64,000 bases of DNA, taken from the NCBI GenBank assembly GCA_025993795.1, contig JAMQHL010000013.1, forward strand, positions 1 through 64,000, given 5' to 3'. The DNA comes from Planctomycetota bacterium. Lineage in GTDB: Bacteria; Planctomycetota; UBA8742; UBA2392. The notes under the pieces were generated by a model, which saw only the letters and a program-made list of their open reading frames with translations, was not told where the DNA came from and searched no databases. The position numbers and the translations under genes were made by a program. This document shows, piece after piece, positions 6,402 to 61,381 of this stretch (position 1 is the stretch's first letter; the number at the start of each line of letters is the position of its first letter).

Positions 6402-7640
6402 ATGACCACGGCCACACCCGCCGAGAATGAACTGATCTACGACTGGAACAAGGTCGGCCATGACAACATTCAGGATCGCAGGAAACCGATCTCCTTTGAC
6501 GATGAAACCCTGCGCGACGGTTTGCAGAGCCCGTCAGCAATCAACCCAACAATCGAACAGAAGATTGAAATCCTGCGATTAATGGAAAACCTGGGCATCG
6601 ACCGCGTTGACCTGGGTCTCCCCGGCGCCGGCCCCCAGCACATCGAACACATCGAAGCGCTGCTCAAGACCATCGTTGACGACAAAATGCGCATCAAGCC
6701 CGGCTGTGCCGTGCGTACCGTGGTCGGCGACATTGAGCCGCTGGACGGCCTGCAACAGAAGTTCGGCATACCCATCCAGGCCAGCGCATTTCTTGGCACA
6801 AGCCCGATCCGCCAGTACGCCGAAGGCTGGACGCTGGCCAAGCTGATGGAAACGATGGAGACCGCCGTGGGCTGGGCCATCGCCCACAAGATCCCGGTCA
6901 TGTTCGTCACCGAAGACACAACCCGCAGCAAGCCCGAGGACGTGAAGGCCCTGTACAGCCGCGCCATCGAACTTGGCGCCTACGCCATCTGCGTCTGCGA
7001 CACCTGCGGCCACGTCACGCCCCACGGCGTGAAGCAGCTTGTGAAGTTTGTGTTTGACGAAATCGTCACGCCGGCCGGCAAGGGCACGCTGGTGAACTGG
7101 CACGGCCACGCCGACCGCGGCCTTGGCCTGATGAACGCGCTGGCGGCAGTCGAAGCCGGTGCCGACATCATTCACGCCACGGCGCTGGGGCTGGGCGAGC
7201 GCGTGGGCAACACGCAGATGGACCAGTTGCTCGTGAACCTGAAGCTGATGGGCTTGATCGACAACGACTTGAGCGCATTGGCTGAGTATGTGCGAAAAGC
7301 GCACCAGTACACGGGCGTGCCCCTGCCGCAGAACTACCCGGTGTTCGGCGAGGACGCCTTCGACACCGGCACCGGTGTGCACGCAGCCGCCGTGATCAAG
7401 GCCAAGAAGAAGGGCGAGAACTGGCTGGCCGACCGGGTGTATTCAGGCGTGCCGGCGGGCGAATTCGGCCTGGAACAACGCATCCGGGTAGGCCACATGA
7501 GCGGCAAGAGCAACGTGGTCTACTGGCTGAACAGCCACGGCTTCGAAGCCACAGACGAGCGTGTAAACAAGATTCTAGAAGCCGCCAAAGCCAGCAAAGC
7601 GCTGCTAAGCGACGCCGAACTAAAAGAGCTGGCGAAGTAG
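6402..7640 (+). CDS. DRE-TIM metallolyase, 2-isopropylmalate/homocitrate synthase-like
   Basis: This is an acyl-CoA-condensing TIM-barrel enzyme of 412 residues. DETLRDG at 34-40 contains the catalytic Arg38 and metal-binding Asp39. HGHAD (H234 and H236) supplies the metal-binding histidines, followed by GERVGNTQMD. These features define the LeuA/homocitrate synthase/citramalate synthase group. The C-terminal LeuA allosteric domain is absent or replaced by a short helical tail (about 315-412), so feedback by leucine is unlikely and the acceptor keto acid is uncertain. GGAG at 6389-6392 suits ATG 6402 (9-base spacing) better than ATG 6396 (3 bases). REP-like repeats start within four bases of the stop codon. 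Confidence 0.83.
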   Translation: MTTATPAENELIYDWNKVGHDNIQDRRKPISFDDETLRDGLQSPSAINPTIEQKIEILRLMENLGIDRVDLGLPGAGPQHIEHIEALLKTIVDDKMRIKPGCAVRTVVGDIEPLDGLQQKFGIPIQASAFLGTSPIRQYAEGWTLAKLMETMETAVGWAIAHKIPVMFVTEDTTRSKPEDVKALYSRAIELGAYAICVCDTCGHVTPHGVKQLVKFVFDEIVTPAGKGTLVNWHGHADRGLGLMNALAAVEAGADIIHATALGLGERVGNTQMDQLLVNLKLMGLIDNDLSALAEYVRKAHQYTGVPLPQNYPVFGEDAFDTGTGVHAAAVIKAKKKGENWLADRVYSGVPAGEFGLEQRIRVGHMSGKSNVVYWLNSHGFEATDERVNKILEAAKASKALLSDAELKELAK

Positions 7641-7651
7641 CGCATCAGCCC

Positions 7652-7790
7652 GGAGCGAAAGCGACGGGGTAGTTCAACCGGAGCGAAAGCGACGGGGTAG
7701 TTCAACCGGAGCGAAAGCGACGGGGTAGTTCAACCAGAGCGAAAGCGACGGGGTAGTTCAACCAGAGCGAAAGCGACGGGGTAGTTCACG
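7652..7790 (+). repeat. Five tandem 28-base REP-like repeats
   Basis: The unit GGAGCGAAAGCGACGGGGTA followed by GTTCAACC is repeated head-to-tail at 7652, 7680, 7708, 7736 and 7764. Copies 4 and 5 start with A instead of G. The last copy diverges after GTTCA. Near-identity suggests recent expansion. The array sits between the synthase stop codon and the transposase start. Confidence 0.92.
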
Positions 7791-7802
7791 CCAGACGCAC
7801 CC

Positions 7803-8291
7803 ATGGTCCTCGGCTACTTTGTAACCTTCACCTGTTACGGAACATGGCTCCACGGTGACGATCGCGGCTCATGGCGCCGCAACGCCAAATCTCTGCGTGA
7901 GTACTTCGTGCCGCCCGACCCAAAACTGGTCGAATCCATGCGCCATCGCATGAAGCATCCGGCCACCAGCTTGGACGGGCCCATGCGCAAATGCGTGCGC
8001 GAAGGCATCGAAGCGTACTGCAATTTCAAGAGTTGGGAGCTTCACGCGCTAGCCGTGCGCACCAATCACGTTCACGTTGTCCTTACCGCCCCGCTGAACA
8101 CGATTCAGCAGGTCATGGTAGCGGCGAAGGCGCGTGCAACATTTCTGCTTCGCGAGGCCGGACTTACTTCGCCAGATCAGCCCATGTGGACGGAAGGGGC
8201 AAGCAAGATAGTGCTCGATACTAATGCGAGCTTCGATGGGGCTGTGCATTACGTGTTGCACGAACAAGGACCGGAATTGCCGGATGATTGA
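7803..8291 (+). CDS. REP-associated tyrosine transposase (RAYT, Y1 HuH family)
   Basis: This 162-residue protein carries an HuH motif at residues 89-91 (NHVHVV). Tyr150 in HYVLHEQG is the candidate nucleophile that forms the 5'-phosphotyrosine with single-stranded DNA. The N-terminal YFVTFTCYGTWLHGD strand is typical of the Y1_Tnp/RAYT group. RAYTs are usually single-copy domesticated relatives of IS200/IS605 transposases that process REP hairpins. The protein is complete and in frame. Flanking repeats point inward from both sides, as expected. There is no clear Shine-Dalgarno. Confidence 0.88.
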   Translation: MVLGYFVTFTCYGTWLHGDDRGSWRRNAKSLREYFVPPDPKLVESMRHRMKHPATSLDGPMRKCVREGIEAYCNFKSWELHALAVRTNHVHVVLTAPLNTIQQVMVAAKARATFLLREAGLTSPDQPMWTEGASKIVLDTNASFDGAVHYVLHEQGPELPDD

Positions 8292-8300
8292 CGCGCCGCT

Positions 8301-8378
8301 GGCGCTTTCGCTTTGTTCGAACTACCCCGTCGCTTTCGCTTTGCTCGAACTTCCCCGTCGCTTTCGCTCCGGGCTGAT
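8301..8378 (-). repeat. Inverted REP-like array downstream of the RAYT
   Basis: Read on the minus strand, this contains three copies of the AGCGAAAGCG core. Two are followed by ACGGGG(T/A)AGTTCG and the third degenerates to CCAGCGGC. It is the mirror image of the array at 7652-7790, so the two could pair over the gene. Confidence 0.88.
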
Positions 8379-8481: not shown

Positions 8482-8694
8482 ATGAGCACTTTCGGAATTC
8501 TGGTTCTACTAGCCGGCATCGGCATCCTGGGCTACGGCATCTGGCTGTACCACCAGGCCGCCAACTCGTTTGATTTTGCCTCCGCGCGCGCCGTGGTCGA
8601 AAACGGCGAAACCCCGATGGCCATCTGGATTGGCGGCGCCATGATCATCGGCGGCGCAGTCGCCATGATGGTCGGCCGCAACCGCAGGCGTTGA
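8482..8694 (+). CDS. Small two-helix membrane protein
   Basis: This is a 70-residue protein. Residues about 3-22 and 48-65 are hydrophobic helices separated by a short polar loop (SFDFASARAVVENGETP). The tail ends in RNRRR, which fits a cytoplasmic end by the positive-inside rule. ATG 8482 has GGAG six bases upstream; the longer frame to 8224 runs through the RAYT and its repeats. I do not recognise the family. It stands alone between the RAYT unit and the flavoprotein gene. Confidence 0.7.
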   Translation: MSTFGILVLLAGIGILGYGIWLYHQAANSFDFASARAVVENGETPMAIWIGGAMIIGGAVAMMVGRNRRR

Positions 8695-13099: not shown

Positions 13100-14068
13100 T
13101 CACATGGCGCTACCGTGAAGCAACCATCCCAGGTGTCTGTCGCGCAGCACAAAGTCTTCGCGGCTCAACTTTCGCAGGTTGAACTCCCCCACCAGCTCAT
13201 TGGCGGTTGCCGGTTCTGGTTTGTCGATCAACCCGGCGGACCATGCCAGAAAGCCGGTAACGCGCCGTGCGTCTGCGCCCTGCTCGCGCAACGACTTGAG
13301 CGACAGGTCGCCGTCACGCTTGGCCATGCGCCGGCCCATCGCATCCTGAATGAACGGGACGTGCGCCCACTGAGCCGGCGACGGCAGGCCCAGCGCACGC
13401 TGAATGGCAATCTGCCGCGCCGTGCTGAGCAACAGGTCACGCCCGCGCAGCACCTGCGTAATGCCCTGCAATGCGTCGTCCACGCCAACCGCAAGCTGAT
13501 AGCTCGGCAAGTCGTCGCGGCGCCACAAAACGAAATCACCAAGCGTTGACGGGTCAACAGTCAGGTGGCCCCGCAGCTCGTCGTGAAATACAACCGGCGG
13601 CCCCTGCCATAGAAAGCGCCAGGCTGGTTCGCGCCCGGTATTGGCCTTGGCGTGCATGGCGTCGCGCCACTTGCCGCGACAAGTACCGGGATAGATCGGG
13701 CCCTCATCAAAGTGGGGCGCGCTGGATGCCTCGTCAATGTCGCGGCGCGTGCATGTGCAGGGGTACGCCTGGCCCTGTTGTGCCAGTGACTCCAAGTGCT
13801 TGCGGTACAGATCGGTTCGGCTGCTTTGAATTGCGTCGTCCGGTAACCCGTCGTTTGCGCTCCGGGTTCTTGCTCTTTGCAGCGCAAGCCAATTCATGTC
13901 CTGCAGGGCTGCTTTCGTGAACTCGGGTTTGCAGCGCGGCTTGTCGATGTCTTCGATGCGCAGCAGCACGTTGCCCCGCGCCCACAGCCATGCCAGCAGA
14001 AAGCTGCGGGCGTTGCCCAGGTGCAGCATTCCTGAGGGCGTTGGCGCAAGTCTTCCAAGCGGCGTCAA
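13100..14068 (-). CDS. gluQ: Glutamyl-Q tRNA(Asp) synthetase
   Basis: This 322-residue protein is a truncated glutamyl-tRNA synthetase lacking the anticodon-binding domain. The HIGH-type motif is PSGMLHLGNAR (about 10-20). The KMSKS-type loop is RRMAKRDGD. A CTCTRRDID segment followed later by YPGTCRGKW gives the Cys/Tyr zinc site typical of GluQRS. The enzyme charges glutamate onto queuosine-34 of tRNA-Asp rather than onto a tRNA 3' end. The start overlaps the stop of the upstream dehydrogenase gene by four bases (ATGA), so translation is coupled. Confidence 0.93.
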   Translation of the reverse strand: MTPLGRLAPTPSGMLHLGNARSFLLAWLWARGNVLLRIEDIDKPRCKPEFTKAALQDMNWLALQRARTRSANDGLPDDAIQSSRTDLYRKHLESLAQQGQAYPCTCTRRDIDEASSAPHFDEGPIYPGTCRGKWRDAMHAKANTGREPAWRFLWQGPPVVFHDELRGHLTVDPSTLGDFVLWRRDDLPSYQLAVGVDDALQGITQVLRGRDLLLSTARQIAIQRALGLPSPAQWAHVPFIQDAMGRRMAKRDGDLSLKSLREQGADARRVTGFLAWSAGLIDKPEPATANELVGEFNLRKLSREDFVLRDRHLGWLLHGSAM

Positions 14069-25141: not shown

Positions 25142-25234
25142 CAACGCACCGGCCCGTGCCCAGCCGAATCTGAACACTACCGGATTCATGCCGCGGCTTT
25201 GCCGATTGGCTGCATCGGTGTATACAGGCCCCGC

Positions 25235-25684
25235 ATGGACGTGACACCTCCTGAAGATGTACGCACCCAAGCCCGCGAACTGGCGCTGAAGCTGCTGTAC
25301 GCGCTGGATGTTTCGCGCCCGGGCGCCGCACCCGAGTCAGCAGAGGCCGAAGTGCGCAAGGTGCTTGAGGTTGAGCACCAGTCGGCGGCCGTGAGTGACT
25401 TTGCGAAACTGTTGACCGACGGCGTGCGCGAACAGCAGGCGGCGCTCGACAAGGCAATCCAGGACGCGGCTGTGAACTGGCAGGTTTCGCGCATGCCCTA
25501 TGTGGACCGCGCCATCCTGCGCATGGGCGTGTTTGAGCTGCTGCACATGTTCGACGTGCCGCCCAAGGTAACGATCAACGAAGCCGTGGACCTGGCCAAG
25601 AAATACTCAACCGAAAAGTCCGGAGCCTTCGTTAACGGGGTGCTGGACAAAGTGTTCCAGACCCACTGCCCCCAAAAGGTGTAG
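25235..25684 (+). CDS. nusB: Transcription antitermination factor NusB
   Basis: This 149-residue all-helical protein starts RTQARELALKLLYALDVSRPG, the RNA-binding arginine-rich helix of NusB. It ends with INEAVDLAKKYSTEKSGAFVNGVLD, a strong family signature. NusB pairs with S10 (NusE) on boxA RNA during rRNA transcription. ATG 25235 is preferred over the upstream in-frame ATG at 25199 on family alignment; neither has a good Shine-Dalgarno. The ribH-nusB order is common in bacteria. Confidence 0.95.
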   Translation: MDVTPPEDVRTQARELALKLLYALDVSRPGAAPESAEAEVRKVLEVEHQSAAVSDFAKLLTDGVREQQAALDKAIQDAAVNWQVSRMPYVDRAILRMGVFELLHMFDVPPKVTINEAVDLAKKYSTEKSGAFVNGVLDKVFQTHCPQKV

Positions 25685-25707
25685 GCCGCGAAGCAAGAAA
25701 ACAAGAG

Positions 25708-25727
25708 CCCCGAGCGCCAGCGACGGG
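25708..25727 (+). repeat. Solitary REP-like sequence related to the RAYT-flanking repeat
   Basis: CCCGAGCGCCAGCGACGGGC in the nusB-ftsY gap resembles the AGCGAAAGCGACGGGG core at 7652-8378. It is a candidate dispersed copy. Confidence 0.5.
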
Positions 25728-25752: not shown

Positions 25753-26790
25753 GTGGGCCTGTTCAGCAAGAAGCAGAAGCCAAAAGAGTCGCCCGCCACG
25801 GACGAGCCGGCGTTGCCACCAGCCGAACCACCAGAACCCGCAGCCGAAAAAAAGGGCATGCTCGCCAAGCTCACGCGCGCGATCAGCAAGACGCGCATGG
25901 TGCTGAACCGCCGCGTGCTGGGCGTGATCGGGCTGGGCCAGAAGATCAACGACGACATTCTTGAGAAGCTCGAAGAGGCAATGATCGAAGCCGACTTCGG
26001 CGTCGAGACCACCGACTTTCTCATGGATGTCGTCCGCAGCGCCTGGAAGAACGGCAACATTGAGCAGACCACAGACATTCTGCCGTTCCTGCGCAAAGAC
26101 CTGAAACAGCGCCTGACGCACCGCGGCAACGAACTGCATTTTGCGCCCAAGAAACCCACCGTCATTCTCGTCGTCGGCATCAATGGCGCCGGCAAGACCA
26201 CCAGCATCGCCAAGCTGGCATGGTGGCTTGAAAGCTCAGGCCGCCACGTGGTTCTGGCCGCAGCCGACACGTTTCGCGCGGCGGCTGTGCAGCAGCTCAA
26301 GACATGGTCTGAGCGCATCGGGTGCGAGATCGTCACCGGCGCCGAACACGCGGACCCGGCCAGTGTCGCCCACCGTGCCGCTGAGCGCGCCCTGGAAGTC
26401 GGCGCCGATATCCTGCTGGTAGACACGGCGGGCCGGCTGCACACACAGAAGAACCTGATGGATGAGCTGCGCAAAATCAGCAACGCCTGCGCCGCCAAAA
26501 AGATTGAGGGCGCGCCGCACGAGACCATCCTGGTGCTCGACTCAACCACGGGCCAGAACGCGGTCACGCAAGCCGAAATGTTCAAGCAATCGGCCAATGT
26601 CACCGGCCTTTTCCTGGCTAAACTGGATGGCACAGCCAAGGGCGGCGCGGTCCTTACAATCAACGAAAAGGTCGAAGTACCGGTGAAGTTCGTCGGCCTG
26701 GGTGAGAAACTCGAAGACATGCAGCCGTTTGACGCGGACCGTTTCGTAGAAGCACTGTTCGACCTGGAAGGACTTACCGAAGCCGAATGA
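25753..26790 (+). CDS. ftsY: Signal recognition particle receptor FtsY
   Basis: This 345-residue protein is a complete FtsY. A short Pro/Glu/Ala-rich acidic A-region (about 10-35) precedes the helical N domain. The G domain shows P-loop GINGAGKT (142-149), DTFRAAAVQQL, DTAGR (224-228) and AKLDGTAKGG. It docks SRP-ribosome complexes at the membrane and hydrolyses GTP with Ffh. The start is GTG 25753. Its stop overlaps the start of the giant regulator gene by four bases (ATGA), which links the two translationally. Confidence 0.97.
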   Translation: MGLFSKKQKPKESPATDEPALPPAEPPEPAAEKKGMLAKLTRAISKTRMVLNRRVLGVIGLGQKINDDILEKLEEAMIEADFGVETTDFLMDVVRSAWKNGNIEQTTDILPFLRKDLKQRLTHRGNELHFAPKKPTVILVVGINGAGKTTSIAKLAWWLESSGRHVVLAAADTFRAAAVQQLKTWSERIGCEIVTGAEHADPASVAHRAAERALEVGADILLVDTAGRLHTQKNLMDELRKISNACAAKKIEGAPHETILVLDSTTGQNAVTQAEMFKQSANVTGLFLAKLDGTAKGGAVLTINEKVEVPVKFVGLGEKLEDMQPFDADRFVEALFDLEGLTEAE

Positions 26791-52817: not shown

Positions 52818-52901
52818 CTACTTCTTCTTCTTCTTGGCGGTCTTCTTCTTTGCGGCCTTCTTAGCGGGTTTCTTTGCCTTTTTCTTCGCGGTAGCTGCCA
52901 T
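52818..52901 (-). CDS. 27-residue lysine-rich mini-protein (histone H1-tail-like)
   Basis: This minus-strand gene of 28 codons encodes MAATAKKKAKKPAKKAA followed by KKKTAKKKKK. It has 15 Lys, 8 Ala and one Pro, with no acidic residues. The Shine-Dalgarno AAGGAGG lies six bases before the ATG, a consensus promoter lies 39 bases before, and a T-tailed hairpin follows. The composition matches the Lys/Ala/Pro tails of histone H1-like and HU-tail proteins, so nucleic-acid binding is likely. It is too short for standard gene calling. The known family is unclear. Confidence 0.7.
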   Translation of the reverse strand: MAATAKKKAKKPAKKAAKKKTAKKKKK

Positions 52902-60841: not shown

Positions 60842-61381
60842 ATGATATCCGCACGAAGGTCGGGTTTTACCCTGATCGAGATTCTGATTGTCGTCGGCAT
60901 CATCGGTCTGCTTGTGACCGTGCTGCTGGCTGTGCTGCTTGGTGCCGTAGGCAAAGGCGACGAGCACATGGCCAAGGACTTCGTGAACAACCGCATTCCG
61001 ACTGCCATGACCACCTGGCAGCAGAAGAACGGCATGGGCAGCAGCGATTTTCCGCGCAGCCCGAACATGAAGGACGGCAAGGACTACATCGACGGCAACA
61101 TCGAGCTTTACCTTGAACTGATCAAGAAGCCGGTGGACGGCGGCGAAATGCCGTACGTTGAAGACAGCGGCTACACCAAGGGTGACCACAACGGAAAGCC
61201 GATCTTTCTCGACCCCTGGGGCAACCCGTACATCTACCGCAACTACTCGCAGAAGCGCAGCAAGAGCGGCAACGACACGCAAACGCGCATCAAGACGAAG
61301 TACTCTGAGGCATACGACGTGATCTCGATGGGGCCTGACGGCCTGTACGAGACCGACGACGACATCGCCAAGGGGAAATAA
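60842..61381 (+). CDS. GspG-like major pseudopilin
   Basis: This 179-residue prepilin-type protein has the peptidase site G8/F9 and Glu at +5 of FTLIEILIV. A hydrophobic helix follows (about 9-36). The globular part has DPWGNPYIYR and SMGPDGLYETDDD, the GspG hallmarks that bind calcium and shape the pseudopilus. It is first in a run of five prepilin genes. GGAGG precedes the ATG. It belongs to a type II secretion-like or pseudopilus system; the ATPase and secretin are outside the window. Confidence 0.88.
   Translation: MISARRSGFTLIEILIVVGIIGLLVTVLLAVLLGAVGKGDEHMAKDFVNNRIPTAMTTWQQKNGMGSSDFPRSPNMKDGKDYIDGNIELYLELIKKPVDGGEMPYVEDSGYTKGDHNGKPIFLDPWGNPYIYRNYSQKRSKSGNDTQTRIKTKYSEAYDVISMGPDGLYETDDDIAKGK

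Follow-up and report, generated by a model that had tools for sequence, protein, structure and literature searches.

A transposase gene lying between inward-facing arrays of short repeats raises the question of whether the locus is an active RAYT element whose REP-like repeats have recently expanded and dispersed, as was originally predicted from the DNA alone, or a unit of another kind. We addressed this question for the window, meaning the whole stretch of 64,000 nucleotides from a Planctomycetota bacterium, by analysis of its repeats and transposase together with related loci in other genomes.

Organization of the locus

The locus follows an HMGL-like gene whose stop codon (TAG) is at positions 7638-7640, with the transposase ORF starting 162 nt downstream. 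That ORF encodes a 162-residue HUH/Y1 protein and sits between two 32-nt ends which, as had been claimed, are inverted copies of each other with one mismatch; both arrays are likewise oriented inward, toward the Y1 transposase gene (Table 1). The left array has the predicted five tandem 28-nt units (140 bp in total, starts at 7650, 7678, 7706, 7734 and 7762), which are 99% matching, whereas the three near-identical units proposed for the right side proved to be two full inverted units and a degenerate partial third (AGCGAAAGCGCCAGCG, 8297-8312, 3 mismatches), or 2.4 copies according to TRF. The array 16-mer has seven exact copies in the window, and ten matches were found with up to 3 mismatches (1.29 expected, maximum of 5 in 100 shuffles).

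Foot and clamp are intact in the two outermost units only. TCAACC replaces TCAGCC in left units 2-5, which read TCAACC(G/A)GAG, a G>A change in the clamp is common to left units 4 and 5, and CAAAGC is present in right units 2 and 3. The sharing of variants by neighboring units fits stepwise tandem duplication, and the homogeneity of the left array suggests that duplication was recent, which agrees with the expansion originally read from it. Two more short tandem repeats in the window (52826-52862 and 61239-61295, periods 15 and 30) appeared unrelated in sequence by eye, and a small ORF at 8483-8694 had matches at none of the 12 other HMGL loci (13 compared, with only the self match).

Table 1. 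Repeat and gene features of the window.
Feature	Position	Strand	Remarks
Left terminal unit	7644-7675	+	Read inward: foot ATCAG, 4-bp clamp CCCG/CGGG, tandem GA/GA mismatch, GC-GAAA-GC mini-hairpin, tail GTAGTTC; inverted copy of 8347-8378
Left array, five 28-nt units	7650-7789	+	
Class 3-like HUH/Y1 transposase, 162 aa	7803-8291	+	H89-V-H91, W129, Y150, Q155; PF01797, alignment and structure model
Right array, third unit	8297-8318	-	Partial, degenerate
Right array, second unit	8319-8346	-	Clamp lost (CAAAGC)
Right terminal unit	8347-8378	-	Foot and clamp intact
Sister-family repeat copy	13847-13868	-	Inside ORF 13100-14068 (-), in frame
Sister-family repeat copy	25706-25727	+	Between ORFs 25199-25684 and 25753-26790; 2 mismatches to sister consensus

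The transposase

The protein matched PF01797 of the Y1_Tnp superfamily with 25.4 bits, above the gathering cut-off of 23, and fell under the curated cut-offs of both the RAYT model NF047646 (24.1 bits, cut-off 80) and the IS200/IS605 TnpA model NF033573 (25.7 bits, cut-off 55). In an alignment of thirty proteins H89, H91 and W129 are invariant, Q155 is present in most complete rows, and the N-terminal residues Y12, G13 and R21 are conserved. Y150, the residue originally picked for a Y150F control, falls in a near-invariant tyrosine column. The nearest folds to an AF2 model of the protein (pLDDT 78, pTM 0.74, residues 17-39 poor) are IS200/IS605 TnpA structures (Z 14.5 and below) followed by the RAYT structure 4ER8 (Z 10.4). 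Foldseek agrees with this ranking (20 matches at E <= 0.001), and a sequence profile also recovers these solved structures weakly (best E 0.00098). Compared with its 73%-identical relative in a genome of a sister genus (G006) the gene has a dN/dS of 0.14, at a dS of 1.44 that is near saturation, and each of the two genomes has one gene copy of this lineage.

Class 3 TnpA_Y1 enzymes, described in 2018, are rare, occur mainly in Planctomycetes, Acidobacteria and Proteobacteria, and are marked by NHVH, W[TA] and Y----Q, with a core profile of 155 residues that has a conserved N-terminus (PMC6006769). All three signatures are present here, as N88-H89-V90-H91, W129-T130 and Y150-VLHE-Q155, the last differing from the printed class 3 motif YV[VI][AENY]EQ at two positions (L and H). 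The RAYT identity originally assigned to the protein did not hold: its RAYT model score is far too low, YIxxNP is absent from its 162 residues, and no GT[AG]G lies 0-2 nt 5' of the window's hairpin, where the rule for class 2 RAYTs places it (PMC6006769). On its motifs, the protein fits a class 3-like TnpA_Y1 rather than a RAYT in the strict sense. We use only the label class 3-like because the foot of the hairpin deviates and the assignment was made by protein motifs, not by a class profile.

The hairpin and a loop rule

The fold of the terminal unit listed in Table 1 is given by the ViennaRNA DNA model, albeit weakly (-3.6 kcal/mol, z -0.87). The mini-hairpin core d(GCGAAAGC) is, to our knowledge, given no special treatment in this model. 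This core is contained in the window's unit and is a known ultra-stable DNA mini-hairpin. A paper from 1989 reportedly deals with exactly this oligonucleotide. Extraordinary stability is described for mini-hairpins whose loop is GNA or GNNA and which have two or more G-C pairs (PMC4686876).

A GNNA loop recurs beside the genes of the same family. Among perfect hairpins (stem of at least 7, loop of 4, within 300 nt) at 44 loci of the window's family, a count that excludes the window's own hairpin with its interrupted stem, 75 of 79 have GNNA loops versus 28 of 241 (12%) over 100 shuffles, which yielded 2.4 perfect hairpins each versus the 79 real ones. Of the GNNA hairpins 55 face the gene. There are 32 distinct stems, and thus the stems vary while the loop class is constant. 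At distances above 400 nt from the genes, the loop is GNNA in 10 of 21 hairpins; dispersed repeats probably contribute to that count, and the shuffles are the cleaner null. Outside the family the loop was found in none of six near hairpins. This GNNA regularity beside same-family genes is new in this analysis.

By eye, GNNA hairpins were also seen on both sides of another Y1 gene of the window's genome, which has a Y---Q--HH motif (L008, G000:C46:20668-21097). This motif belongs to subclass 1.2, which is described as generally lacking terminal structures (PMC6006769). L008 is of a different Y1 type, and class 3 is therefore not alone in showing such loops.

Layout in related loci

The gene family is present in 18 of 60 genomes, the window's own included, with 55 match rows; 50 loci were examined, with L176 and L047, which represent one contig, counted once, and five rows, which are fragments in G009, G012 and G057, were left out. 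Named relatives are Planctomycetota at three of three loci. Inverted flank repeats (score of at least 18, within 400 nt) were found at 22 of 31 first loci versus 33 of 930 mismatched flank pairs, and these control matches mostly pair related elements, the top one being L015 with L037, whose flanks share the end of one HMGL-like gene. Overall, 34 of the 50 loci have such repeats and 16 are without a strong flank repeat. Five copies on one side were found only at the window locus and L038 among those 34, with spacing that is regular in the window (28 four times) and irregular in L038. In a tree that leaves out four broken or short proteins, the window's lineage forms a separate supported clade.

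Several neighborhoods were noted in passing. Two distant class 3-like genes from two genera (L033 in G014, L041 in G001) occupy the same gap between genes that resemble nuoF and nuoG by eye. In G006, the orthologue of the window's HMGL-like gene is directly followed by a different class 3-like gene (L098/L037, G006:C23), and a hairpin starts a few bases past the stop codon of that orthologue, as it does in the window.

Dispersal of the array repeat and a sister repeat

The simple form of dispersal originally envisaged, by the exact array repeat in the window's genome, fails. A count across that 3.29 Mb genome (84.94% complete) gave no exact copy of the array 16-mer beyond the locus, which holds all seven, and none of 59 other genomes has one. 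A diverged relic of the same repeat type is present in the window's genome at C71:42322-42349. What does stand is dispersal of the cognate repeat in G006, the genome of the 73%-identical relative. A search of 17 genomes with the terminal-unit pattern (up to 3 mismatches, controls 0) gave 19 matches in G006, representing the element's two ends and 17 further sites, and many of these dispersed copies keep an identical foot and tail (TTTCAG...GTAGTT). The five matches in the window's genome (G000) are the two ends, one relic and two copies of a sister family; G009 has three, G001 two and G002 one, with none in the remaining 12 of the 17 genomes.

The site at 25708-25727 that had been cited for dispersal is real and related, but is a member of the sister family (Table 1) and not a copy of the array's own repeat. 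The sister repeat, AACARGAGCCCGGAGCGCAAGCGACGGG, has a GCAA or GCCA loop and AACARGAG on its 5' side. Its 22-nt core has 31 matches in G000 (control 0), counting both window ends and a hairpin next to another Y1 gene, L082; 28-29 of the matches are elsewhere. A longer pattern of the sister repeat is found in 9 of the 17 genomes. In G006 inward-facing copies of the sister repeat lie on both sides of another class 3-like gene, L180, and in a further lineage (L188, L190) the repeat lies nearby without an inward pair; the tree requires at least two changes for this association. The ORF with an in-frame sister repeat (13100-14068) resembles glutamyl-Q tRNA synthetase by eye. An inverted pair of terminal-type repeats also surrounds a frame that by eye looks like an ABC-type ATPase (L127, G006:C30:87379-88716), with one copy translated in frame, and three tandem sister-type repeats with 42-nt spacing are present in a genome of the same class (G019:C466:70-181).

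The genomic site

The HMGL-like and HI0933-like genes that border the unit occur in the same order, without the transposase unit, in the congener G002 and in G008, where the intervals contain other DNA (other genes in G002). Similarity to G002 ends near the ends of the two genes. A clean empty site was sought via the upstream and downstream genes; the filled intervals in G002 and G008 establish absence only. Homology to the G006 element is continuous from repeat through gene to repeat, which marks the boundaries of the unit, and the G006 unit lies beside other genes ~7 kb before the orthologue of the HI0933-like gene downstream in the window. Being absent in two relatives and differently placed in a third, the unit is variable at this place; relocation of the unit is not proven.

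Discussion

We consider it likely that the locus is a REPtron-like unit whose enzyme, a class 3 TnpA_Y1, would cleave and move its repeats. In favor of this reading, the HUH/Y1 gene is intact and has inverted copies of its own hairpin on either side, relatives share this layout with hairpins of their own and the hairpin of the nearest relative is dispersed, and two relatives lack the unit between the corresponding genes. Weighing against this reading are the undispersed exact repeat, a foot that is ATCAG and not CnGA, the lack of a clean empty site, the position of the G006 unit ~7 kb from the downstream orthologue, a dS near saturation, the 16 loci without a strong flank repeat and the weak predicted fold. 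The locus was also originally said to look active, but no cleavage or movement was observed.

Potentially, each repeat, once single-stranded, folds into a GNNA mini-hairpin, which in the window is d(GCGAAAGC) enclosed by the tandem G.A mismatch and GC clamp. TnpA would bind this mini-hairpin, cut beside the foot via Y150 with formation of a 5'-phosphotyrosine, and rejoin the DNA, with the outcome that repeat units, and on rare occasions the entire element, are moved or copied. The working ends would be the two outermost units, as no others retain both foot and clamp, and the inner units would be by-products of tandem duplication through replication slippage or unequal exchange. For the window's enzyme we infer hairpin binding, cutting by Y150 and rejoining from its family. 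Cleavage, dependence on the Tyr and a guide function have been published for GTAG REPs (PMC8266576). Among open-licence PMC papers we found no experimental test of any class 3 enzyme. A bolder proposal, which we hold to be rather unlikely, is that class 3 enzymes of this family read DNA shape (a GNNA mini-hairpin with a sheared G.A loop and free stems), that head-to-tail arrays arise when the enzyme itself joins cut units, and that lineages can switch repeats, the same 22-nt core lying beside three transposase lineages. Array growth by slippage is a simpler reading than growth built by the enzyme.

The most serious alternative, somewhat doubtful in our view yet a substantial possibility, is a domesticated gene with passive repeats, in which TnpA moves nothing and the 28-nt array is a slippage minisatellite that at most affects expression of the transposase or the upstream HMGL-like gene. 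The single gene copy, purifying selection, absence of dispersed exact copies, exact 28-nt spacing and variants common to neighboring units all speak for such a locus; against it stand ends kept identical save one base over 32 nt, intact catalytic residues, a cognate dispersed in G006 and the missing unit at this site in the congener. It is improbable that the locus is a true IS200/IS605-type insertion sequence moving whole, with arrays that are subterminal hairpins. The unit is discrete, its nearest solved folds are IS200/IS605 TnpA, and its Y----Q motif resembles class 1 (PMC6006769), but the score for NF033573 is under half its cut-off, G000 and G006 each have one copy of the lineage, the repeats and not the gene multiply, and the ends are inverted and multi-copy.

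A canonical RAYT (class 2, groups 1-5) with GTAG REPs, the GTAG of each unit being the guide, is highly improbable. Each left unit has a GTAG that precedes the following hairpin inward by 5 nt; against this reading stand the NF047646 score, the missing YIxxNP, outermost units without GTAG at the hairpin foot, and a foot shared with G006 (ATCAG/TTTCAG) with the GTAG 3' of the hairpin. Tandem repeats assemble poorly, and the genome is incomplete and probably metagenome-assembled, but an assembly artefact in the array is barely credible given the ordered differences between units, the dissimilarity of the two sides, a left array as short as 140 bp and the same kind of terminal unit in a relative.

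The window locus and its G006 relative form a compact test pair, with the same enzyme lineage and a near-identical terminal hairpin that is dispersed in G006 and locally amplified in the window's genome. IS200/IS605 transposases and RAYTs may be connected through class 3, as proposed by authors who urge experiments (PMC6006769). If the enzyme recognizes the loop, the GNNA rule would be a simple code separating this group from GTAG-footed REPs. The locus is a little-studied relative of the REP/RAYT systems of many bacteria. Its general outline is ordinary and its class rare, and it has a well-marked array and a loop rule worth testing.

Comparison with known systems

The locus most resembles class 3 TnpA_Y1 (PMC6006769) in its Y----Q, NHVH and W[TA] motifs, Planctomycetes host, several flanking hairpins and copies elsewhere in host genomes. 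That class was defined by protein clustering; its genes are described as flanked by atypical hairpins that can be multi-copy, and a 5' CnGA foot is reported for few of the sequences (PMC6006769). The foot here is ATCAG/TTTCAG and not CnGA; among 55 inward perfect hairpins from relatives, 10 agree with a loose CnGA pattern, and the window's foot does not. The five-unit tandem array is a further difference, and no mention of a GNNA loop rule was met in main-text passages of PMC6006769. With the RAYT/REPtron system (E. coli TnpAREP, 4ER8) the locus shares a single HUH/Y1 gene between inverted REP hairpins, and repeat specificity, and departs from it in lacking the GT[AG]G foot and YIxxNP and in scoring far under the RAYT model cut-off. 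The TnpA proteins of IS200/IS605 elements (IS608, ISDra2) have the same fold, HUH/Y1 core and hairpin ends, but the protein here is below the family cut-off, no tnpB lies between the ends, and the repeats rather than the gene are multi-copy. Lastly, TIRYT/TIRtron units also have a Y1 gene between inverted repeats, and GGGGWSAS is the motif of their TIRs (PMC3733652), whereas here the inverted repeats are themselves hairpins.
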